A stretch of 64,000 nt of DNA, taken from the NCBI RefSeq assembly GCF_014204525.1, contig NZ_JACHLP010000002.1, positions 434,001-498,000 of the forward strand, in the 5' to 3' direction. Numbering within the stretch: the first letter of the stretch is position 1; every line of letters starts with the position of its first letter. Position numbers and translations under genes: made by a program. A model generated the notes under the pieces. That model was given only the letters and a program-made list of their open reading frames with translations, was not told where the DNA came from and made no database searches. Shown here in pieces: positions 5,848 to 64,000 of this stretch. Origin of the DNA: Roseateles oligotrophus (GTDB lineage: Bacteria; Pseudomonadota; Gammaproteobacteria; Burkholderiales; Burkholderiaceae_C).

Positions 5848-8126
5848 AGCGCCGCACCTTGCTGCTGAGCGGGCTGGGCGCCTCGGCCGCCCTGCTGGTG
5901 GGCTGGGGCTATCTGCCGCCGCGCAGCCGCCTGGGCCATGCCGGCAGCCTGGGCCAGGTGGAGGGCGAGATCGGCCTGAACGGCTGGATCAAGATCGCCG
6001 CCAACGGCGATGTGCTGCTGGCCATGCACCGCAGCGAGATGGGCCAGGGCGTGCACACGGCCCTGGCCCAGCTGGTGGCCGAGGAGCTGAGCCTGCCGCT
6101 GGCAAGGCTGCGGCTGATCCCGGCGGGCTTCGAGTCCATCTACGGCAATATCGCCATGTTTGTGGGCTCCTTGCCCCTGCACCCGCGCCAGACCGAGCCC
6201 GGCCATACAAGCCTGGGGGCCCGCCTGGGCCAGTGGACGGTGGCCAAGCTGGCGCGTGAACTGGGCATCAACGCCACCGGCGGCAGCAGCAGCGTGGCCG
6301 ATGCCTGGGAACCGCTGCGCTGGGCGGCGGCCACCGCCCGTCAGCAATTGCTGGGCGCCGCCTCGCTGCGCTGGAAGCTGCCCCTGCCCGAGCTGCTGCT
6401 GGAGGACGGGCTGATCAGCCATGTCTCCGGCCCCAGCGCGCATTTTGGCGAGCTGGCCAAGGAGGCCGCGGCCACCCCGCCGGGCGAGGTCAGGCTCAAA
6501 CCCAAGGCCAGATGGACGCAGATCGGCAAGCCCCTGGCGCGCCTGGACCTGGCCGCCAAGGTGGACGGTAGCGCCGTCTTCGGCATCGATGTGCGGCCGG
6601 GCAAGGACCTGCTCTTCGCCGCCGTGCGCCACTGCCCCATGCTGGGCGGCGGCCTGGGGCCGGTGCCCGTCAATGCCTTGCTGCAGCAGCCCGGTGTGCT
6701 GCGGGTCGTGCAGCTGGGCACGGTGGCCGGCAGCCATGCGGCCGTGGCCGTGCTGGCCCGCAATAGCTGGCATGCGCAGCGCGCCGCCGCAAGCCTGGAG
6801 TCGGCCTGGCAGCAGCGTCCCGCCGGCGCCCTGAACACGGCCCAGATCGAAAGCCGCCTGGCCGACAGCGCCCGCGTGGCGGCCGCGCAAGGCCATGTCT
6901 TCTTCTCGCAGGGCGAGGCGGATGCCGCCCTGGCCCAGGCGCCGCGCAAGGTCGAGGCGCTCTACCAGGCCCCCTATCTGGCCCATGCCACGATGGAGCC
7001 GATGAATTGCACGGCCTGCGTCAAGGACGGCCGGGTGGAGGTCTGGGTCGGCACGCAGGTGCCAGGTCTTGCCCGGGCCGTGGCGGCGCGGGTGGCGGGC
7101 GTGGCCGAGGCGGCCGTGACCTTGCATCAGACTTATCTGGGCGGAGGCTTTGGCCGCCGCCTGGAGGCCGACCACGTGGGCCAGGCCGTGCGCGTGGCCA
7201 TGGACACCGGCGGCGTGCCGGTGCAACTGCTGTGGTCGCGCGAGGAGGACATGACGCATGACTTCTACCGCCCGGCCGGCGCCGCCTTCTTGCAAGCCGG
7301 CCTGGACGCCGCGGGCAAGCCCCTGGCCTTGCGGCTGGGCAGCGCGGGCGACGCGATCTCGCCGCGCTGGATGGAGCGGGTGCTGCCGGCCCTGGCCGGC
7401 CCGGTCGAGCCGCCCGACAAGAGTGCCAGCGAGGGCTTGTTCGATCAGCCCTATGCCATCCCGCAGCAGCGCATCGCGCATCTGGCCACGCACAGCGGCG
7501 TGCCGGTGGGCTTCTGGCGCTCGGTGGGTCATTCCCACAACGCCTTTTTCATCGAGAGCTTTGTCGACGAGCTGGCCCATGCCGCCGGCGCCGACCCGCT
7601 GGCCTACCGGCTGGCGCTGCTGGACGGCCTGCCGCGCCATGCCGCCGTGCTCAGGCGTGCGGCGCAGGAAGCGGGCTGGGGTCAGGTCTTGCCCAAAGAC
7701 CGAGCGCGTGGCCTGGCCTTGCACGAGAGCTTCGGCAGCATCGTGGCCCAGGTCATCGAGCTGAGCAGCCAGCAGGGCAAACCGCGGGTGCATCGCGTGG
7801 TCTGCGCCATCGACTGCGGCGTGGTGCTCAACCCCGGCATCGTCGCCCAGCAGATGGAGAGCGCGGTGATCTTCGGCCTGACGGCCGCGCTCTACGGCCG
7901 CATCGACATCAAGGACGGCGTGGTGCAGCAGCGCAACTTCCCCGACTATCCCCTGCTGACGCTGGCCCAGACGCCGCTGATCGAGACCCATCTGATGGCC
8001 AGCGATCTGCCTCCCACCGGCGTCGGTGAGCCCGGCACGCCGCCGGTGGCGCCGGCCCTGGCCAATGCCTGGTTCGCCCTGACCGGTGAGCGCTTGCGCC
8101 GCCTGCCTTTGGCAACTACTGTTTGA
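5844..8126 (+). CDS. iorB: Isoquinoline 1-oxidoreductase-type molybdopterin subunit
   Basis: A 760-aa catalytic subunit. The N-terminus [10 protein letters not shown] plus a hydrophobic stretch looks like a Tat signal or anchor, so a periplasmic location is likely. Family motifs include [29 protein letters not shown] (MPT/cofactor region) and a C-terminal [10 protein letters not shown] holding the catalytic Glu. Typical IorB proteins are 700-780 aa, so it is full length. Start and stop overlap iorA in ATGA. There is no XdhC-type maturation gene nearby. The substrate is inferred from family only. Confidence 0.92.
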
Positions 8127-8182
8127 TCAGGTGGCTTGCCGCCGCGCCAGCGGCGGATCCAAGGAGTGAGGTCGAGGAGCTT

Positions 8183-10303
8183 ATGCAGATCTCCCTGAAT
8201 AGTCGCATACGCCTGCCCGCCAGATCCGAGGCTCTGGCCGAGACTGTGGACCTGGACCGGCCGGTGGGCGCCATCCGGCGCAGCTATTTCCTGGCCCTGG
8301 CCATCCTGGCCTTGCTGGCCCTGGGCAACTATCTGGTCATCAACGCCATGTTGCGCGAGCAGGCCCATGCGGTGGCCCTCAACGAGGTGGCGATCAGTCA
8401 GCGCTCGGACCTGCGCCGGGTGGCGCAGATCGTCGAGCTGATCCTGCGCACCCAGGATCAGAATCCCGGCCCCGGTGGCCAGCGCTGGCTGGCCGCGACC
8501 CGCGAGGAGTTGGCGAGGTTGGCGGGGCGCCTGGAGTCCAGCCAGGAGGTGTTTGACCAGGCCCTGCTGCGCGACCAGGGCCTGCGGGTAAGCTGGCTCA
8601 AGACGCCTCTGATCGACACGGGCCGGGCCCAGCGTTTCTCGGCCATGACGCGCGCGCTGGCTCAGCAGCTGCGCAAGTTCGCCGCCCTGGATGCCGGCCA
8701 GGTGGAGTGGCGTTTCTCGGTCTGGGCGCCGCTGGAGCTGGCCCTGGCCGCCGACGGCCTCTTGATGAGCGAGGTGAATGCCATCACCAGCGATCTCTAC
8801 CGCCACGCCCTGCACACGGCCCAGCGCTTCCAGCGCCTGCATCTGGCGCTGGCCGGCATCACCTTGCTGACCCTGTTGGCCGAGTACCTGCTGATCTTCC
8901 ACCCCATGCTGCAAGGCCTGCGCCAGAGCAACCAGCGCATCCGCCAGATCACCGAGCAGCTGCGCCACCAGGCCAACCATGATCTGCTCACCGACGTGGG
9001 CAACCGGCGCCTGCTGCGGGCCACGCTGGAGGCGCTGGAGCGGGCGCCCCAGCCCTCGGCCTCGCATGCCCTGCTGCTGCTCGATATCGACAAGTTCAGA
9101 AAGACCAATGAGTTGTTCGGCCATGCGGCGGGCGACCATGCCTTGCGCGCGCTGGCCGAGCGCTTGCAGGACTGCCTGCGTCCGAGCGACCATCTGTTCC
9201 GCAGCGGGGGGAATGAGTTCACCATCGTGCTGCAGCCGGCGCCGCCGGATCCGCCCGCCATGCAGGCCGTGCTGGACGGCCTGGCGGAGGCGGTAGTCCG
9301 GCCGCTGCGCTTCCAGAACCAGGCCTTCCAGATCAGCGCCTGCCTGGGTGCGGCCAGCGCCGGGCTGACCGGCGATACGCAGGGCGATCTGCTCGGCCAG
9401 GCCGACTTCGCCCTGCGCATGGCCAAGCAGGCGGGGCCCGGATCCCGGCGCGTGTTCGACCGCAATGACGCCGGCATCAGCGCGGCGCGGGAGCGGATGG
9501 CCGTGCAGCTCAACCAGGCCTTGCAGCGGGGCCAGATCAAGGCCCATTACCAGCCGGTGGTCGATGTCCACAGCCAGCGCATCCTGGGCGTGGAGGCGCT
9601 GGCCCGCTGGGTCAGAGAGGACGGCGCGGTGCTGACGCCGGCCGAGTTTCTGCCCGTCGTGCAGGAGTTCGGCATGCTGGACCGGCTGACCGAGGCCATG
9701 CTGCAGGCCGTGCTGGACGACCGCCTGCTGTGGCGCGAGCAGGCGGTGATGCCCGGCTTCGTCAGCGTCAACTTCCCCGAGGTCAGCCTGTCGGACCAGT
9801 ATCTGCTGCCGCGTTTGCAGGCCATGGCCGGCGACGAGGGCCTGGCCTGGTTGCAGGTGGAGGTGCTGGAGACCGCCTTGCTCTGCCGGGCCAGCGAGAG
9901 GATCGAGTGCAATCTGCATGGCCTGGCCGAGCTGGGGGTGCGGGTGGTGCTGGACGATTTCGGCACCGGCTATGCCTCGCTCAGCCATCTGCGGCGCCTG
10001 CCCTGCCATTCGATCAAGATCGACCAGAGTTTTGTGGCCGCCATGCAGCGGGATGCGGGCAGCCTGCTGATCGTGCGCGGCATGATAGACATGGCCCTGG
10101 GCCTGGGCCTCAAGGTCACGGTCGAGGGCATAGAGAACCTGGCCCAGCACCAGGTCTTTCTGGCCTTTGCCGGGGTCCGTGGCCAGGGTCATTTCTATGC
10201 CCGGGCGCAAAGCCCGCAGGCGCTGTCCCAGCTATTGCGGGCCAATGCGGCGAACCCGGCCCAGCCGGCCTCGACCCTCGCCAGCACCGGAGCTGCCTCA
10301 TGA
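8183..10303 (+). CDS. Membrane c-di-GMP phosphodiesterase (degenerate GGDEF + EAL)
   Basis: A 706-aa sensor enzyme. TM1 is at about 35-56, a periplasmic domain at 57-219, TM2 at 220-240, GGDEF at about 265-425 and EAL at about 435-690. The GGDEF active loop reads SGGNEF (341-346), so the catalytic Asp is replaced and cyclase activity is doubtful. The EAL motif (471-473) and DDFGTGYASL are intact, so c-di-GMP hydrolysis is likely. The start ATG at 8183 has GAGGTCGAGGAG just upstream and is preferred to TTG at 8123. The stop overlaps the ATG of a periplasmic binding protein, suggesting that protein is its ligand adaptor, as NspS is for MbaA in Vibrio cholerae. Confidence 0.93.
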   Translation: MQISLNSRIRLPARSEALAETVDLDRPVGAIRRSYFLALAILALLALGNYLVINAMLREQAHAVALNEVAISQRSDLRRVAQIVELILRTQDQNPGPGGQRWLAATREELARLAGRLESSQEVFDQALLRDQGLRVSWLKTPLIDTGRAQRFSAMTRALAQQLRKFAALDAGQVEWRFSVWAPLELALAADGLLMSEVNAITSDLYRHALHTAQRFQRLHLALAGITLLTLLAEYLLIFHPMLQGLRQSNQRIRQITEQLRHQANHDLLTDVGNRRLLRATLEALERAPQPSASHALLLLDIDKFRKTNELFGHAAGDHALRALAERLQDCLRPSDHLFRSGGNEFTIVLQPAPPDPPAMQAVLDGLAEAVVRPLRFQNQAFQISACLGAASAGLTGDTQGDLLGQADFALRMAKQAGPGSRRVFDRNDAGISAARERMAVQLNQALQRGQIKAHYQPVVDVHSQRILGVEALARWVREDGAVLTPAEFLPVVQEFGMLDRLTEAMLQAVLDDRLLWREQAVMPGFVSVNFPEVSLSDQYLLPRLQAMAGDEGLAWLQVEVLETALLCRASERIECNLHGLAELGVRVVLDDFGTGYASLSHLRRLPCHSIKIDQSFVAAMQRDAGSLLIVRGMIDMALGLGLKVTVEGIENLAQHQVFLAFAGVRGQGHFYARAQSPQALSQLLRANAANPAQPASTLASTGAAS

Positions 10304-11529
10304 ACGGCGGCCGGGCCTGGCTGCTTGGCTGCCTATTGGCTTTGCCCGTGCAAGCCGAGACCGCGCCGCCTCGCATCGACCTCGCGCATTTCTGGATCGC
10401 GCCCAGCGAGCGCGCCAGCCTCGATCTGATCGCCCAGCGCTTTATCGCCCGCGGCGGGGTCTGGTCCGACACCCCCTCGCCGGACTATGAGTTCATGAAG
10501 CGGGACAGCGTCATGCGCATCACGGCGGGCTTCCCGCCCAGCGCCATGTGGTTGGGCGCCGAGGACATCGCCAGCCTGGGCGTGCTGGGCGTGGCCACCC
10601 GGCTCAATGACCTGGCCGAGGAGGACGGCTGGCGCCGGCATCTGCACGACTTCATCTGGCCGGTGCTGTACCAGCAGGGCGAGCTGGTCGGCCTGCCCGT
10701 GACCCTGCACAACGAAAACTGGGCCTGGTTCAATGCCAAGCTGTACCGGCGTCTGCATTTGCCCCTGCCCAAGACCTGGGACGAGGTGCTGGCCCAGGCC
10801 CCGGTGTTTATGCGGGCCGGCGTATTGCCCCTGGCCATCAGCGACCAGCCCTGGAATGTGCGCCTGCTCTTCACCACCCTGATGGCCGGGGCGGCCGGCC
10901 CCGAGCTGTATCGCCGCCTCTATATCGACGAGGACCCCAGCGTGTTCGACCACCCGCGCGTGCTCCGCGTGCTGGAAATCCTGGAGCGCTTGCGCGCCTA
11001 TCGGCCGCCGGCGGGCGAGGTGCGGACCTGGAATGCCGCCACCACCCTGGTGATCCAGGGCCGGGCCGCCATGCAGGTGATGGGGGATTGGGCCAAGGGC
11101 GAATTCAAGAAAGTGGGGCCGGCCTCGGCCCAGCAGGATTTTGTCTGCGCTCCCGTGCCCGAGGCCCAGCGCAGCTTTATCGCCGCCCTCGATATGCTGA
11201 GCTTTCCCCGTGTGCGCGACCTGCCCAGCCAGGCCGGCCAGCGCCTGCTGGCCCGGCTGATGCTGGAGCCTGAGCTGCAGGCCGCTTTTGCCCATCGCAA
11301 AGGCTCTCTGCCGGTGCGCCGGGACATTGCCGCCACCCAGCTGGACGCCTGCGCGGCCGACAGCCTGGCGCGCTTGAACGAGGCTTCCACCCGCCTGCTC
11401 AGCCCGCGCGCCCTCACCAGCGAGCAGGTGCGCGTGGCCTTGCAAGCCGAGCTGGCGGCCTTCTGGAACAGGCCCGGCATGACGGTGGAGGAGCTGCGCC
11501 AGCGGCTGCGCCAGGCCATGCGTAAATGA
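10300..11529 (+). CDS. Extracellular solute-binding protein (sugar-type, family 1)
   Basis: A 409-aa protein with a signal peptide (residues 1 to about 20, ending LPVQAE). The body resembles carbohydrate ABC-transporter binding proteins: NENWAWFNAKLYRRLHLPLPKTWDEVL in pieces, a DWAKGEFKK segment, and the C-terminal hinge half. It is translationally coupled (ATGA) to the GGDEF-EAL membrane protein. No permease or ATPase gene is near. This suggests a sensory rather than transport role, presenting a ligand to the periplasmic domain of its partner. The ligand is unknown; a sugar is guessed from family resemblance. Convergent with the lipoprotein that follows. Confidence 0.88.
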   Translation: MNGGRAWLLGCLLALPVQAETAPPRIDLAHFWIAPSERASLDLIAQRFIARGGVWSDTPSPDYEFMKRDSVMRITAGFPPSAMWLGAEDIASLGVLGVATRLNDLAEEDGWRRHLHDFIWPVLYQQGELVGLPVTLHNENWAWFNAKLYRRLHLPLPKTWDEVLAQAPVFMRAGVLPLAISDQPWNVRLLFTTLMAGAAGPELYRRLYIDEDPSVFDHPRVLRVLEILERLRAYRPPAGEVRTWNAATTLVIQGRAAMQVMGDWAKGEFKKVGPASAQQDFVCAPVPEAQRSFIAALDMLSFPRVRDLPSQAGQRLLARLMLEPELQAAFAHRKGSLPVRRDIAATQLDACAADSLARLNEASTRLLSPRALTSEQVRVALQAELAAFWNRPGMTVEELRQRLRQAMRK

Positions 11530-11535
11530 CCGAGG

Positions 11536-12021
11536 CTAGCCGCCGTAGAGCGTGCGCGGGTCGTCGGTGCTGGCGCTGCTTTGCACCCGGTGCTCGCGGT
11601 CGAACATGACGCTGAAGATCTTGCGGTCCTGGCCGTCCAGATAGCGCCATTCCCAGACCTCCTCATCCGGCTTGAGGGCGTAGCGATGGGTCTTGGCATG
11701 GCGGCCCAGGATCTCGCTCACCTGGGCCTGCGTCATGCCCGGCTGGATCTTGGCGAAGTTGTGCGGCGCCAGCAGCTGGCGCAGCGAGCTCAGCTTGCCG
11801 TCGGCGCCGATGATGATTTCGTAATTCGTGCTGCCCTCGGGCTGGCGCGGGTAGGCCAGCAGCTTGCTGCCGTCGGCTCTTTCGATGATTTGCGCCGGTT
11901 CGCCGAACTGCTGGCGCACATCGGCCTCGGTGGAGACCCCCTCGTTGAGCTTGTCGGCGCGTTGCGCATCGCAGGCGCTCAGCAGGCAGGCGGCCAGGGT
12001 CAGCAGCAGCAGGGGTTTCAT
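11536..12021 (-). CDS. BamE/SmpA-like lipoprotein with two repeats
   Basis: A 161-aa lipoprotein: signal peptide with lipobox LSAC, lipidated at C17. The mature part looks like two BamE/SmpA-type units. The first runs from EGVSTEADVRQQFGEPA to the beta segment YEIIIGADGKLSS. The second runs from IQPGMTQAQVSEILGRH to FSVMFDREHRVQSS. It is probably anchored in the outer membrane and may assist envelope assembly, but it is not the housekeeping bamE by length or context. It lies 5 nt downstream of the hybrid kinase, so it is co-transcribed with it. Confidence 0.8.
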   Translation of the reverse strand: MKPLLLLTLAACLLSACDAQRADKLNEGVSTEADVRQQFGEPAQIIERADGSKLLAYPRQPEGSTNYEIIIGADGKLSSLRQLLAPHNFAKIQPGMTQAQVSEILGRHAKTHRYALKPDEEVWEWRYLDGQDRKIFSVMFDREHRVQSSASTDDPRTLYGG

Positions 12022-12026
12022 CGGCG

Positions 12027-15000
12027 TCAGCTCCGGGTTTGATCGTTGTCGCGGTGGCCGATCAAGCGTACCAGGGTGGCGCGCAGCTTGGGCGCGTCGA
12101 TGGGCTTGGTGAGGAAGTCGTTCATACCCGCGGCCAGGGCCTCGTCGCGTTCGGACACCAGGGCGGCGGCCGTCAGGGCGATGATGGGCAGCTCCTCGGC
12201 CGGGAAGCGCTTGCGCACCTCGCGGGTGGCCTCGTGGCCGCTCATCACCGGCATCTGCACATCCATCAGCACGGCGTCGAAAGGCTTGCCCATGCTGGCG
12301 GCGGCAAAGATGGCCTCCACCGCCTGGCTGCCATCCTGGGCCTGCGAGACCTCCAGCCCCCATTGCTGCAACTGGGCCACGCCTATCATCATATTGACGG
12401 GGTGGTCCTCCACCATCAGCACGCGCAGGCCCTGCAGGTCCTGCTTGTCCCTGGCCGCATTGGCCGCATTGGGGCGGGTGCTGATGGCGGGCGTTGCGGC
12501 CGGCAGCGGCAGCTCGGCCCAGAAGGTGGAGCCCTGGCCCAGCCGGCTTTGCACCCCCACCTTGCCGCCCATCAGGGCCGCCAGCTCGCGGCAGATGGAC
12601 AGGCCCAGGCCGGTGCCGCCAAAACGCCGGGTGGTGGACTCGTCGGCCTGGGTGAAGGGCTGGAACAGGCGCTCGAACAGGCTTTCATCGATGCCGGGGC
12701 CGGTGTCCGTCACCTCGATGCGCAGGCGCTGCTCAGGGCGCGCCAGCACCCGCACCAGCACCGAGCCGCTGGCGGTGAACTTCAGGGCATTGCTCAGATA
12801 GTTGCTGAGGATCTGGCGTATGCGCACCTGGTCGCCCAGGACCCAGGCGGGCACGGCCGCGTCGATCTGGATGTCAAAGCTCAGGCCGCGGGCCTGGGCC
12901 AGCGTGATATAGGCCATGCGCATGGTGGCCAGCATCTCGCGCAGGGCAAAGGGGGCAGCTTCCAGGCTGAGGCGGCCGGCCTCGATCTTGGAGAGGTCGA
13001 GGATGTCGGAGATCAGGCCGGACAGGCTTTCGGCGCTGTCCAGCATCTGGTCCAGATACTCGCGCCGGGTGCTCTCCTCCAGATCGGGTTGTTGCAGCAT
13101 GCGGGCCAGGCCCAGCAAGCCGTTCAGCGGGGTGCGCAACTCGTGGCTGGTGTTGGCGAGGAAGGCGCTCTTGGCGCGGTTGGCGGCCTGGGCTTCGTCC
13201 TTGGCCTGGGCCAGGGCGGCCTCGACGCGGCGCCGCTCGGTGACGTCTTCCATGATCCAGATCGTGCCGCCGCGGCTGGGGTGGTTGGGGTCCACGGCCT
13301 TGGCCAGCAGGCGGCACAAAAAGGTGCTGCCATCGCGCCGCCGCATGGGGCGCTCGACCTCCACCTGCTCGCCGGCCGCCAGCTTGGGGCCCAGCTCCTT
13401 GCCGATGGCGGCGTAGTCGGCATCGGTGGGCCAGACCACCCGGCCATGCTGGCCCAGCATGCCGCCGGCGGGCCAGCCGAACATTTCTTCCACCCAGCGG
13501 TTGGCCTGCACAAAGCGCTGGTCGCGGGTCAGGGCGATGCCGATGGAGGCGTTTTCCAGAATGGCTTGATGGACCAGGCGCGAGCGCTCGGTCTCGGTCA
13601 CGTCGCGGGCGTTGATGACCAGGTATTGCTCGCCATCCATGGCGAAGGGGGCGGCCGACATCACCATGGAGATGGGCTCGCCGGCCTTGTTGCAGAAGGT
13701 CACCGGCTGATCGGTGACGCGGCCCTGCTGGCGTATGCCGGCCACGATGCGCTCGCGGTCGGCCGGGTCGAACCAGACGCCCAGCTCGTCGGCCGTGTGG
13801 CCCAGCACGTCCTCGATGGCATGGCCGGACAGGCGCTCGAAGGTCTTGTTGACCATGGCATAGCGGCCGCTATTGATCTCGGTCAGCGTGATCACATCGG
13901 GGCTGGTGGCGACCAGATGCGAGAGCAGGGCCTCGGAGCGGCGCAAGGCCTCCTGGGCACGCGACTGTTCGGTCTGGTCGATGAAAAAACTCAGCGTGGC
14001 CGGGCCGCTGATGGCGTCCACCCGCACGCTGGTGGCGCTGACCAGGCGGCGCCGCCGGGACAGGGTGCGCAGGCGGAACTCGGCCATGGGCAGGATGGCA
14101 CCCACGGCCATGGACTCCAATTTGGCGGCGCGCTGGCGGGCGCGTTCGTCGTCGCCCGGCTCGTAGTGCGAGAACAGATCCTGGCCAATCATGCTGGCGC
14201 GCTGGGTGTAGCCAAACATGGCCATGGCCGCCGGGTTGGCGTCGATGACACGGCCCCAGCGGTGCAGCACCAGGGGCGAGGGCGAGCGGCGGAACAGCTC
14301 GCGGTAGCGGGTCTCGGTGGCGTGGATGGCTTGCTCGGCCTGCACCTCCTCGCTGACATCGCGGCCCACGCCCCAGTAGCCGCGGAAATTGCCCTGCGAA
14401 TCAAAGCGGGGTTCGCCGCTGACCGAGACGTAGCGCAGGCTGCCGTCCTGGCCCAGGCGCCGCACCATCAGGCCGTGGAAGGGACGGTGCGACTCCAGAT
14501 CGGCCCGGTGGGCGTCCATGTCCTCGTCGCTGCTGCCCGGCGGGCCCAGCTCCCAGGGCGTCTTGCCCAGGCGGGACTGCAGATCCAGGCCGATGCTGCC
14601 GGGCTTGTCTTCGGCCACATGGGTGAAGCGGAACTCGCGGTTCATCTCCCAATACCAGTCGGCCGCCATGCTCAAGAGGCCGCGGAAGCGCGCATTGCGC
14701 TCGGCCGCATCATTCGCGCCGCGCTGCACGATGCGCAGCAGGCCCACGCCTATCATCAGGCCCGAGACCAGCAGGATCAGATGGGTGGAGATCCGCAAGC
14801 CCGGCGAGCTATTGGCCGCACTGCTGGTGGCCCAGCCCTGCAGCTCGGCCAGGCCGATGCCGCCCAGCAGCAGCAGGGCCAGGCCGCCCAGGCCGAGGCC
14901 GGCGCGCACGCCCAGCGTGCCGGTGCCCAGGGCCGTCAGCAGGCTCAGGGCCGCCATGGTGAGGGAATGGCTGCCCAGATCGCGCGAGACGGCGATGCAG

Positions 15001-53469: not shown

Positions 53470-55563
53470 TTACTCCTCGTCCTTCGCCTTGTAGGCCGAG
53501 GTCAGCGCGGCCTGGGTGTTGGGCGGCACGGCCTCGTAATGCGAGAGCGCCAGCGTGTAGCGGCCCTGGCCGCTGGTCATGGCGTTGAGCCGGGTCTGGT
53601 AGCTGTCCAGCTCGGCCAGCGGCGCCAGGCCCTGCACCGTGATGACGCCGGGCACGGCCGAGCGCGTGCCGTTGATCTGGCCGCGGCGGGCCGCGAGGTC
53701 GCCGGTGATGTCGCCCATCGCGGCCTCGGGCGTGCTGATCTCGACATGGACGATGGGCTCCAGCACCAGCGGCCTGGCCTCGCGCACCGCCGCGATCAAG
53801 GCCTTGCGGGCGGCGGTGATGAAGGCAATCTCCTTGCTGTCCACCGAATGGTGCTTGCCCTCGAACACCGTCACCCGCAGATCGACCAGGGGGTAGCCGG
53901 CGACGACGCCGCTGTCCAGCGCAGCGCGCACACCCTTCTCCACCGCCGGCATGAACTGGCCCGGTATCGTGCCGCCCTTGACGGCGTCCACGAACTCGAA
54001 GCCGGCCCCGCGCGCCAGCGGCTCCACGCGCAGCCAGACCTCGCCGAATTGGCCGGCCCCGCCGCTCTGCTTTTTGTGCCGGTAATGGCCTTCGGCCGGG
54101 CTGGCGACGGTCTCGCGGTAGGCGATACGCGGCGGCTGGGTCAGCACCTCGAATTTATAGCTCTCGCGCAGCCGCTCCAGCAGCATGCGCAGATGCAGCT
54201 CGCCCAGGCCGTAGACCAGGGTCTCATGGGTGGCGCTGGCGCGCTCGACCTTCAGGCAGGGGTCTTCGTCGATCAGGCGGTGGAGGATCTCCCACAGCCG
54301 CTGCTCGTCGCCATGGCGGGCCGGGCTGATCGCCAGGCCGTGCACAGGCATGGGGAAGTCCAGCGGCGCCAGATGGATGTGCTCGTCCTCGGGCGCGTCG
54401 TGCAGCACGGCATCAAAGTGCAGATCCTCGACCTTGGCGATGGCGCAGATATCACCCGGCAAGGCCTGTTCGATCTCGATATGTTCCTTGCCCTGCAGCA
54501 GAAAGAGATGGCCGACGCGAAAGGGCTTGCGCGCATGGCCGACAAAGAGCTGGCTGTTCTTCGTCAGCGTGCCCTGGTGGACCCGCAGCACGCCCATCTT
54601 GCCCAGATAGGGGTCGGCATTGATCTTGAACACATGGGCCAGCACATGGGCGCTGGGGTCGGGCAGGGCTTGCAGGGGCTGCGCGTCGGGGCCCTCGCCG
54701 CGCAGGAAGAGCGGCGGATTGCCCTCGCTGGGATTGGGCAGCAGGCGCTCGATCACATCGAGCAGCTCGGCCACGCCCGCGCCCGTGCGCGCCGAGGTGA
54801 AGCAGACCGGGATCAGATGGCCTTCGCGCAGCGCCTGTTCCAGCGGCGCGTGCAGCTCGCTGGCATCGACATCGCCCTCGTTCAGATAACGGTCTACAAA
54901 AGCGGCATCGACCTCGACGACCTGCTCCACCAGGGCGCGGTGGGCTTCGGCCACCGAGGAGAAATCGCTGGCCCCGCTGCTGCTGTAAAAACAGTCCTGC
55001 ACCCGCGTGCCGCCATCGGCTGGCAGATTCAGCGGCAGGCATTCGCGGCCGAAGTTCTCGCGCAGCTGCGCCAGCAGGGCCGGCAGCTGCAGGCCGGGCG
55101 CGTCGATGCGGTTGACCACGATCAGGCGGCACAGCCGGCGCTGTGCGGCGGTCTCCATCATGCGCGAGGCCATCAGCTCGATGCCATTCAGCGCATTGAT
55201 CACGACGACGGCCGTGTCGGCCGCCTCCAGCGCCGGCAGCGACTGGCCGATGAAGTCGGGCGCGCCGGGCGTGTCGATGGCATGGATGCGCAGGCCAGCG
55301 TGGTGCAGATGCACGACAGCGGCATGCAGCGAATGCTGGGCGCGCTTTTCCAGCGGGTCGAAGTCGCTGACCGTGTTGCCGCGCTCCACCGTGCCCGCCG
55401 CAGCGATGGCGCCGGCCTGCTGCAGCAAGGCCTCGATCAAGCTAGTCTTGCCCGCGCCGGCCGGCCCCACCAGGGCCAGGGTTCGGATCTGGGCGATCTG
55501 GGCGCTGAGGCCCGGGCTGCCCGGACTGGCAGCCTCCTGGGCTTTGCTATGGCTGGCAGGCAT
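53470..55563 (-). CDS. Elongation factor G-like GTPase (non-canonical paralogue)
   Basis: A 697-aa translation-type GTPase. The P-loop is GPAGAGKTSLIEAL, switch II DTPGAPDFIG and the base-specific motif NRID. Domain II and an EF-G domain IV/V region follow (HYRHKKQSGGAGQFGEV, VRAALDSGVVAGYPLVDLRV). The switch regions diverge from housekeeping FusA, and the gene is far from the str operon, so it is the EF-G-like subgroup whose role is not settled. It may act in ribosome rescue or stress. Confidence 0.9.
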   Translation of the reverse strand: MPASHSKAQEAASPGSPGLSAQIAQIRTLALVGPAGAGKTSLIEALLQQAGAIAAAGTVERGNTVSDFDPLEKRAQHSLHAAVVHLHHAGLRIHAIDTPGAPDFIGQSLPALEAADTAVVVINALNGIELMASRMMETAAQRRLCRLIVVNRIDAPGLQLPALLAQLRENFGRECLPLNLPADGGTRVQDCFYSSSGASDFSSVAEAHRALVEQVVEVDAAFVDRYLNEGDVDASELHAPLEQALREGHLIPVCFTSARTGAGVAELLDVIERLLPNPSEGNPPLFLRGEGPDAQPLQALPDPSAHVLAHVFKINADPYLGKMGVLRVHQGTLTKNSQLFVGHARKPFRVGHLFLLQGKEHIEIEQALPGDICAIAKVEDLHFDAVLHDAPEDEHIHLAPLDFPMPVHGLAISPARHGDEQRLWEILHRLIDEDPCLKVERASATHETLVYGLGELHLRMLLERLRESYKFEVLTQPPRIAYRETVASPAEGHYRHKKQSGGAGQFGEVWLRVEPLARGAGFEFVDAVKGGTIPGQFMPAVEKGVRAALDSGVVAGYPLVDLRVTVFEGKHHSVDSKEIAFITAARKALIAAVREARPLVLEPIVHVEISTPEAAMGDITGDLAARRGQINGTRSAVPGVITVQGLAPLAELDSYQTRLNAMTSGQGRYTLALSHYEAVPPNTQAALTSAYKAKDEE

Positions 55564-62313: not shown

Positions 62314-64000
62314 TCAGCCGAGGCCGCCCAGCACGGTGTCGGCCGATTCGCTGCTGAGGTCGGGCGCCTGCCAGTGGCGCAGCCAGTCCAGGAACTGGGC
62401 CTCGGGCATGGGCTTGGCGATGAAGTAACCCTGACCTTCATCGCAGCCCAGGGCGGCCAGGATCTTCCAGGCCTTGGCCGTCTCCACCCCTTCGGCCACC
62501 ACCGACAGGCCCAGATTGTGGGCCAGCTCGATGGTGGAGTGCACGATCTTGGCGTCGCCCAGGTCGCGCTCCATGGCCAGCACAAAGCTCTTGTCGATCT
62601 TGAGCTCATCCACCGGCAAGGTCTTCAGATAGGCCAGCGAGGAGTAGCCGGTGCCGAAGTCGTCGATGGACAGCTTGAAGCCCAGGGCGCTGAGCTGCTC
62701 CAGCGTGTGCAGGGCGCGCTGGGGGTCGTCCATGATGGCGCTCTCGGTGATCTCCAGGCACAGGGCCTGGCTGCCGGCGCCCTGGGCGGCCAGCATGCCC
62801 ATGATCTTGGCCGGCAAGTCCTGGTCCAGCAGATCGCGGGTGGAGAGATTGACGCTGATGCGCAGCTCCAGGCCCTGCGCCTGCGCTTGCGACCAGGCAC
62901 GCAGGGCGGCGGCAATCACCCAGGTGGTGAGCGTGCGGATAAAACCGCTCTGCTCGGCGAAGGGGATGAAGTGCATGGGCGGCACCAGGCCGCGCTCGGG
63001 GTGCTGCCAGCGCAGCAAGGCCTCGGCGCTGAGGATGCGGCCCCGGGCCAGGTCGACCTTGGGCTGCAGGTACAGGCGCAGCTCGCCGGCCTCGACCGCG
63101 TGGCGCAGCTCGCCCAGCAGGGACAGCGACTCCTGGCTGCCCACGTCCAGCTGGGCGCTGTAGACCATGCTGCCGCTCTGGCGCTTCTTGGCGTCGAACA
63201 TGGCCAGGGTGGCGCGCGCCAGCAGCAGCTTGGCCTCGCGCCCGTGCTGGGGCGCCAGGGCGATGCCGATGCCGGCGCTCAGGTCCACCGTCTGGTCCTG
63301 GATCTGCAGGGGGTTTTCGAAGTCGCGCCGGATCGCATCGGCCAGGGCCAGGGCCGAGGCCTCATTGGCGCCGCGCAATAGCAGGGCGAACTCATCGCCG
63401 CTGAGGCGGGCCAGACCGTCCTCGGGGCCGGGCAGCAGGGCTTGCAGGCGCTTGGCCACCTTGCGCAAGAGCAGGTCGCCGAATTCATGGCCCTGCACAT
63501 CGTTGACGTGCTTGAAGCGGTCCAGGCCCAGGATCAGCACGGCCAGGGGGGTGTCGGCGCCGGCCTGCGCCAGCGCCTGGCCGACCCGCAGGCCGAAGCC
63601 CGCTCGGTTGGGCAGTTCGGTCAGCTGGTCCTTGAAGGCCAGGTCATTGAGGCTGTGGTCGCGCTGGCGTATGCCCTGGCGCATGGCTTCGAAGGCGCTG
63701 GCCAGATGGCTGACCTCCTCGGCCCCCTTGATCTGCGCGACCGGGGTGTCGTAGTCGCCCCGGCCCAGGCGTTCCACCGATTCGGCCAGGGTCGAGATGG
63801 GCTCGCTGATGCGGCGCGCCGTCAGCACGCTGCCCAGGGCAAAGGCGGCCACGCCCAGCAGGGTCAGCCAGGCCAGGGTTTGGCGCAGCAGGCCGAAGGA
63901 GAGAAAGGCCTGGTCAAACGAGCGCAGCAGCACCACCGCCAGCTCCTGCGGGCCCTCTTGCAGCAAGGGCAGGTAGAGGCCGCGCATCTCTTCGGCGCCG
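62314..64000 (-). CDS. HAMP-GGDEF-EAL c-di-GMP protein (partial)
   Basis: The last ~562 codons of a membrane protein whose start lies beyond the window. Visible parts, in order: the end of a periplasmic sensor, a TM helix (TLAWLTLLGVAAFALGSVLTA), HAMP (RRISEPISTLAESVERLGRGD), GGDEF, then EAL. The GGDEF loop is RLSGDEFALLL, a variant that can still be active. EAL is intact (AEALLRW, ITESAIMDD, DDFGTGYSSLAYL). It may be bifunctional or a phosphodiesterase with a GTP-sensing GGDEF domain. Confidence 0.93.
   Translation of the reverse strand, partial: GAEEMRGLYLPLLQEGPQELAVVLLRSFDQAFLSFGLLRQTLAWLTLLGVAAFALGSVLTARRISEPISTLAESVERLGRGDYDTPVAQIKGAEEVSHLASAFEAMRQGIRQRDHSLNDLAFKDQLTELPNRAGFGLRVGQALAQAGADTPLAVLILGLDRFKHVNDVQGHEFGDLLLRKVAKRLQALLPGPEDGLARLSGDEFALLLRGANEASALALADAIRRDFENPLQIQDQTVDLSAGIGIALAPQHGREAKLLLARATLAMFDAKKRQSGSMVYSAQLDVGSQESLSLLGELRHAVEAGELRLYLQPKVDLARGRILSAEALLRWQHPERGLVPPMHFIPFAEQSGFIRTLTTWVIAAALRAWSQAQAQGLELRISVNLSTRDLLDQDLPAKIMGMLAAQGAGSQALCLEITESAIMDDPQRALHTLEQLSALGFKLSIDDFGTGYSSLAYLKTLPVDELKIDKSFVLAMERDLGDAKIVHSTIELAHNLGLSVVAEGVETAKAWKILAALGCDEGQGYFIAKPMPEAQFLDWLRHWQAPDLSSESADTVLGGLG

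Follow-up and report, generated by a model that had tools for sequence, protein, structure and literature searches.

A sugar-type solute-binding protein encoded behind a GGDEF-EAL receptor in Roseateles oligotrophus: a recurrent gene pair and probable two-protein receptor

The stretch of DNA analyzed here, referred to as the window, comprises 64,000 nucleotides of the genome of Roseateles oligotrophus (GCF_014204525.1, contig NZ_JACHLP010000002.1, positions 434,001 to 498,000; the genome is G000 below). Its forward strand carries two overlapping genes, one for a GGDEF-EAL phosphodiesterase receptor (PDE) and one for a solute-binding protein (SBP). The PDE gene (8183..10303, with ATG at 8183 and stop codon at 10301-10303) encodes 706 amino acid residues. 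A first membrane helix was placed by hydropathy at about residues 35-57 (8285..8353), within a predicted helix of residues 25-90, and a second one at about residues 219-243 (8837..8911). Between them lies a periplasmic sensor of residues 57-219 (8351..8839), which is predicted to be a helical bundle and is without a Pfam family. The GGDEF domain (residues 264-418, 8972..9436; Pfam E = 3.6e-32) carries an altered motif that reads SGGNEF, of which GGNEF is residues 342-346 (9206..9220). It is followed by an EAL phosphodiesterase domain (residues 442-674, 9506..10204; Pfam E = 1.2e-53) with its active-site residues present. The PDE stop and the SBP start share the letters ATGA at 10300..10303. 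The SBP (10300..11529; 409 residues) matches SBP_bac_1 (1.3e-11) and SBP_bac_8 (2.9e-10) and likely begins with a signal peptide, read by eye as residues 1-19 ending in VQA (10300..10356). Open reading frames, Pfam and hydropathy thus bore out the preliminary description of a PDE with two membrane helices, an altered GGDEF and an EAL domain that overlaps a secreted SBP. A promoter scan of positions 7900-12200 found none.

A Pfam scan of seven sensor sequences gave chance-level matches only. The sensor model, built from five sequences, was a helical bundle with a pLDDT (predicted local distance difference test) of 76.9, and several NarQ entries had template modelling (TM) scores of 0.43-0.45 to it. 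Searching the sensor profile against the PDB sequences returned keratins, syntaxins and the like, with a best E of 0.007. The most conserved part of the sensor is the block WRFSVWAP of residues 176-183 (8708..8731), identified by alignment and proposed here as the docking site of the SBP. The W, F, S, W and P of the pattern W-R/H-F-S-x-W-A/S-P were invariant in the seven sensors, as were four later single positions; the rhizobial form of the block is x-R-Y-S/T-F-W-G-P, without the first Trp. From the helix order in the model, the block would lie near the membrane-distal end of the sensor.

In the EAL domain of the window PDE, residues E471, N530, E560, E563, D591, D592, K612, E648 and Q668 are present, positions that we take to have metal-binding or catalytic roles. 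All eight proteins whose EAL domain is complete, that of the window among them, have the catalytic residues; in the protein of locus L191 the motif is ETL. The GGDEF motif was canonical in 6 of the 9 proteins compared, a set that included the window PDE, and was altered in the window PDE and in those of loci L104 and L105, in three different ways. A degenerate GGDEF, as described earlier, therefore holds for the window protein but is not a trait of the family. Because of the altered motif, the window receptor is best read as a phosphodiesterase, and its output is most likely EAL phosphodiesterase activity alone; receptors with a canonical GGDEF could be bifunctional like MbaA of Vibrio cholerae.

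The earlier assignment of the SBP as carbohydrate-type was confirmed by sequence and by fold, both of which place it in the glucose-binding family. Its model (pLDDT 91.7) had a TM score of 0.91 to ppGBP (GtsA of Pseudomonas putida CSV86; PDB entry 5dvj), to which it is 31-32% identical. The top seven fold matches had TM scores of 0.85-0.91, and the top nine all belonged to the glucose-binding group, as did all five PDB sequences that matched the SBP at E ≤ 1e-10. Twelve glucose contacts of this family are on record (PMC7927077), of which the window SBP keeps six, with an aromatic residue at a seventh. The pocket residues W36, E41, W250, W270, D303 and K339 were retained in all nine SBPs of two receptor-linked groups, A (six sequences) and B (three sequences), and contact W35 was F or Y in both groups and F in the window SBP. 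In group A, G68 was replaced by D, Q90 by W (5/6), K92 by G (5/6), N301 by A and H379 by P (4/6), positions 68 and 379 falling in gapped stretches of the alignment. In group B, Q90 was retained, K92 was N and N301 was V. The SBP of locus L128 had F at W270. Because the core of the sugar pocket is kept but five of the twelve contacts are changed, the sequence suggests, as the probable ligand, a sugar different from glucose. Glucose itself is unlikely, given the replacement of K92 and N301, and sensing of a polyamine was rejected because the SBP belongs to the glucose-binding group.

The preliminary description had proposed a conserved adjacency of the two protein families as a check on their coupling, and it was found from both sides. 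From the SBP side, a GTDB scan took in only SBPs with one of two peptides (HNENWAW or AMQVMGD) and kept 80 of 107 confirmed loci. All four SBP relatives at 43-74% identity (L103, L104, L105 and L106) were encoded directly downstream of a GGDEF-EAL gene, and the sensors of these four receptors aligned with the window sensor at 29-65% identity. L105 (a Sulfurovum metagenome-assembled genome, MAG) and L106 (a Phycisphaerales MAG) lie on contigs of 5.8 and 4.8 kb, respectively, and their labels may be misbinned. At L128 (a Thiothrix MAG, SBP identity 36%), an EAL gene just upstream of the SBP gene was cut by the contig end. Over the 80 loci, the neighbors comprised a nearby permease (67), an EAL gene (5), a kinase without permease (5), a chemoreceptor (1) or none of these (2). 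A prevalence of full transporter operons of the ATP-binding cassette (ABC) type among SBP homologs would speak against the coupling; by this measure, most of the distant homologs have a permease nearby, and the four close ones lie behind a GGDEF-EAL gene instead. No match to a GtsB/C-type permease was found in the flanks fetched for L103-L106, L191, L214 and L217, L105 and L106 being short contigs; at L104 there was one ATPase-seed match, roughly 2 kb before the receptor gene. SBPs of the same family were also seen beside or near chemoreceptor genes without permeases, at L080 (7000-12557), L102 (7779-8996) and L172.

From the sensor side, a single-sequence search of 200 genomes of the family returned the window's own genome, that of Paucibacter sp. 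KBW04 (G144) and a weak piece of 38% identity with an internal stop in G065, which was set aside. Sensor profiles were then run over 399 genomes of the order, 369 of the class, 398 of the phylum, 61 of the family of G394 and 289 of the class of G1001, draws that overlap. Four further GGDEF-EAL proteins matched (L191, L192, L214 and L217), with 65-97% of the profile covered and with the block or its rhizobial variant present. An SBP gene directly followed the receptor gene in all three of these loci with enough contig (L191, L214 and L217), the contig of L192 stopping inside the EAL domain. At L217 (7577-10479), one GGDEF-EAL receptor gene is followed by two tandem SBP genes, perhaps giving two ligands per receptor. 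Many of the weak profile matches were to kinases or GGDEF proteins and fell for the most part on the second membrane helix. None of 16 weaker-match loci that were fetched (L193-L197, L215, L216, L218-L222 and L276-L279) held an SBP gene, and an SBP profile at E 0.01 detected none either; the hit genes lacked the block. The contigs of L216 and L222 extend less than 1 kb beyond the hit gene, and the other weak matches were viewed with 1.5 kb flanks only. Because the PDE-SBP pair recurs in distant bacteria and was found from both search directions, we regard it as a real unit and not a product of chance.

A rhizobial version of the pair is seen at L214, which was 98% identical to a locus on plasmid pRspN324e of Rhizobium sp. 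N324. Its sensor occurred in 34 PLSDB records (22 Rhizobium, 10 Sinorhizobium, 1 Pararhizobium and 1 Agrobacterium), which are related and do not represent independent events; the window sensor itself had no match among the plasmids. In 32 of the 34 records, the sensor is followed on its own strand, at a distance of 1.4-1.5 kb and behind the EAL part, by an SBP match at E ≤ 1e-90; one of these 32 (NZ_CP023064.1) matched in three pieces. In two Sinorhizobium americanum records (L282 and L283, about 8190-8640), only SBP residues 35-183 matched, in two pieces; the receptor gene before this partial SBP matched over nearly its whole length. Where present and inspected, the annotation of the rhizobial SBP was ABC transporter substrate-binding protein. 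With these plasmids and the recurrence from both directions, the earlier proposal of a carbohydrate-family SBP coupled to a cyclic di-GMP (c-di-GMP) enzyme and conserved as a pair is supported.

Ten rhizobial plasmid regions (L280-L289) were inspected for what surrounds the pair. By sequence or annotation, TadE/TadG pilus genes lay downstream of it in N324, Rhizobium etli CIAT 652 and Pararhizobium A13, and L214 had them downstream as well. Agrobacterium cucumeris has them, recognized by annotation only, one gene farther downstream, and no TadE/TadG genes were found in the flanks fetched for the four Sinorhizobium loci, CB3171 or SL42. The arrangement of the pair upstream of TadE/TadG can be viewed at L280 (5965-12084), L281, L214, L287 and L286. 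In N324 and CIAT 652, genes for an amino-acid ABC transporter and the binding protein that belongs to it lie at least 4 kb upstream on the opposite strand.

The preliminary description had also stated that no ABC permease or ATPase gene lies near the window pair. The search used three seeds of the GtsB/C-type family, two for permeases and one for an ATPase. None of the 58 called genes in the window matched the permease seeds, quite different permease families not being sought. One distant gene (53470-55563) gave a weak match to the ATPase seed (E = 2e-4). The permease part of the statement thus stands for the GtsB/C type, and the ATPase part stands apart from this single match. In the whole genome, a close GtsB-type permease was likewise not found. 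The search gave two weak matches at 27-28% identity, the best at 27% with E = 2.8e-24, whereas the GtsB-type permeases adjoining family SBPs in G144 and G207 scored 44-53%, with E from 5e-78 to 4e-94. Another congener, G202, was also without a close GtsB-type permease. Two SBPs of the glucose-binding family were found in G000, that of the window and one beside a two-component system (L003). The latter (G000:C1:762000-781000, gene 7634-9325) is part of an operon for SBP, response regulator and histidine kinase. Of 18 genomes of the genus, at least 14 have an L003-type SBP gene together with a regulator gene among the loci fetched, and the gene that follows often belongs to a cluster from which the member scanned was a tryptophan-halogenase homolog. 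A second GGDEF-EAL gene lies at the end of the window, on the reverse strand (62314-63999).

Genes flanking the pair were 81-96% identical between the window and Paucibacter sp. KBW04, whereas the SBPs were 74% and the PDEs 62% identical. The window pair has an oxidoreductase gene on one side and a BamE-like gene (11536-12021) on the other; in KBW04 the pair lies beyond the BamE-like gene (L063:12314-12754). In three other congeners, 4.1-4.6 kb without the window genes separates the oxidoreductase and a kinase gene. Since the pair diverges more than its flanks and switches side of the BamE-like gene, it looks fast-changing or repeatedly inserted. At the same site, one of these congeners (L260, 5405-8140) has genes for two small proteins that look secreted and may each be a single Cache domain, and then a chemoreceptor-like gene, all named by eye.

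Group A of the SBPs had support of 100/99 in a careful tree, and group B had support of 100 in a quick tree. A single clade of all receptor-linked SBPs was suggested by the quick tree; the careful tree speaks neither for nor against it (approximately unbiased test, p-AU 0.23), and it is not claimed here. The SBPs near chemoreceptors (L080, L102 and L172) and that near a hybrid kinase (L097) were placed elsewhere in the quick tree, and for this reason this SBP family may have become coupled to receptors on more than one occasion.

Among known systems in which a binding protein acts on a membrane receptor, TorT-TorS and LuxP-LuxQ have kinase outputs and SBPs of other families. ScrB-ScrC of Vibrio parahaemolyticus joins a binding protein to a GGDEF-EAL receptor and responds to a self-made signal. 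Similar to TorT-TorS and LuxP-LuxQ, the window SBP is proposed to act through the periplasmic domain of its receptor. The periplasmic domain of TorS, through which TorT acts, is all-helical (PMC8534201). The closest precedent for the SBP is GltB of Pseudomonas aeruginosa, a protein of the same family that binds the sensor domain of GtrS with a KD of 0.1 uM and whose pocket residues are needed for activation (PMC7927077). Different from the window pair, GtrS, in the GltB-GtrS-GltR system, has a histidine kinase output, and gltB is in the operon gltBFGK-oprB. Different from both ppGBP and GltB, the window SBP has no close cognate GtsB/C-type permease beside it or in the genome, in addition to its five changed contacts.

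The preliminary description had likened the pair to NspS-MbaA of V. cholerae, in which a binding protein can switch a GGDEF-EAL receptor and its occupancy sets the phosphodiesterase or cyclase state (PMC8967002, PMC8079147), and which has homologs in Sinorhizobium meliloti. The likeness extends to the gene for a periplasmic binding protein adjoining that for a membrane GGDEF-EAL receptor. It does not extend to the family of the SBP, NspS binding polyamine, or to gene order, nspS being immediately upstream of mbaA (PMC8079147) and the window SBP gene downstream of the receptor gene. Moreover, MbaA reads SGDEF and EVL, and the window receptor reads GGNEF and EAL. By SBP family and gene order the pair thus falls outside NspS-MbaA but by analogy probably works likewise. 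It would join two known ideas, SBP to receptor and SBP to GGDEF-EAL protein, and add a separate family of sensors. In the literature searched we found no account of a GGDEF-EAL receptor paired with a GtsA-type SBP, which does not prove that none exists.

From the sequences and these precedents, we consider it probable that the pair is a two-protein receptor in which a sugar-type SBP controls a c-di-GMP enzyme. What we infer within this reading are the binding of SBP to receptor, the ligand, the docking site, the direction of the effect and the output. The exported SBP would bind a sugar or sugar-like ligand, close, and dock on the end of the helical sensor domain. Docking would shift the second membrane helix and reset the cytoplasmic GGDEF-EAL unit, so that sugar outside the cell would change c-di-GMP and hence attachment or motility. 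By analogy with NspS-MbaA, we slightly favor that docking lowers phosphodiesterase activity and that the ligand would thereby raise c-di-GMP.

Several observations weigh against this reading. The pair is rare: judged by SBP ortholog it occurs in 2 of 18 genomes in the genus, and judged by sensor in 2 of 200 in the family. The fold match of the sensor is weak: no PDB entry scored E ≤ 0.001, and a designed bundle ranked first and NarQ second (probability 1.00, E 0.03). The SBP-less L193 also encodes a GGDEF-EAL protein, one that lacks the block. The sensor E-values of L214 (1e-15) and L217 (2e-12) overlap those of SBP-less kinases (best 5e-13), for which reason the group is marked here by the block and the EAL output and not by E-value. 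The block was itself defined after the loci had been viewed, and the wider pattern that covers L214 and L217 was drawn after reading them. Groups A and B as one clade are neither shown nor rejected in the careful tree (p-AU 0.26). The remaining points concern transport and the pocket. They are the ABC permeases near 67 of the 80 scanned SBPs, distant relatives of at most 36% identity; a carbohydrate-annotated ABC ATPase and permease, with their own binding protein, 1.3 kb upstream of the receptor gene in Pararhizobium A13; and the alteration of five of the twelve glucose contacts in the window SBP.

The two transport points, together with the two weak permease matches in G000, would fit an SBP that is a transport protein sharing an operon with the PDE and feeding an ABC permease encoded elsewhere, with the PDE reading something else. 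We judge this unlikely. Close GtsB-type permeases are present in two related genomes but not in G000, and sensor and SBP stay paired in distant bacteria without a GtsB/C-type permease match in the fetched flanks, the short contigs of L105 and L106 and the ATPase-seed match at L104 noted. It is very unlikely, in our view, that the SBP is an orphan with two uses, working with the PDE and also with a second receptor of the cell, for instance the two-component system at L003. GltB of P. aeruginosa did bind several receptor domains (PMC7927077), but the L003 system has its own SBP and, by eye, the periplasmic region of its kinase is unlike the PDE sensor. That the PDE alone senses and the SBP is a degenerate relict or a helper without sugar binding seems most improbable, since the core Trp, Glu, Asp and Lys are retained in 9/9 SBPs and the SBP is better conserved than the PDE between the two congeners (75% against 62% identity), despite the changed contacts (K92 to G and N301 to A among them) and the partial SBPs of S. 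americanum.

The two-protein receptor would add to what is known of c-di-GMP signaling, in which the outside signal is known for few enzymes. According to a 2022 review, the binding-protein clan comprises 27 Pfam families, and work on c-di-GMP networks had dealt with just one of them, SBP_bac_3, in the form of a fused domain (PMC8846402). Tentatively, and as a possibility that we rate below even, the pairs described here may belong to an unnamed, scattered class of sugar-to-c-di-GMP co-receptors, in which the WRFSxWAP end of one family of helical sensors serves as a docking port for the SBP and can take different SBPs or, as at L217, even two. Rhizobia, with the pair upstream of Tad pilus genes, might in this way couple sugars of plants or neighbors to attachment, and Paucibacter-like bacteria might use it for sugar-guided settling or leaving. 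The class might in turn be part of a wider habit of this SBP family to serve kinases, chemoreceptors and c-di-GMP enzymes instead of transporters. Whether a receptor works with an SBP may be predictable from the short WRFSxWAP motif. Together with its dedicated receptor, a separate SBP of the sugar type would offer a directly testable route from ligand to c-di-GMP, also in the genetically tractable rhizobia.

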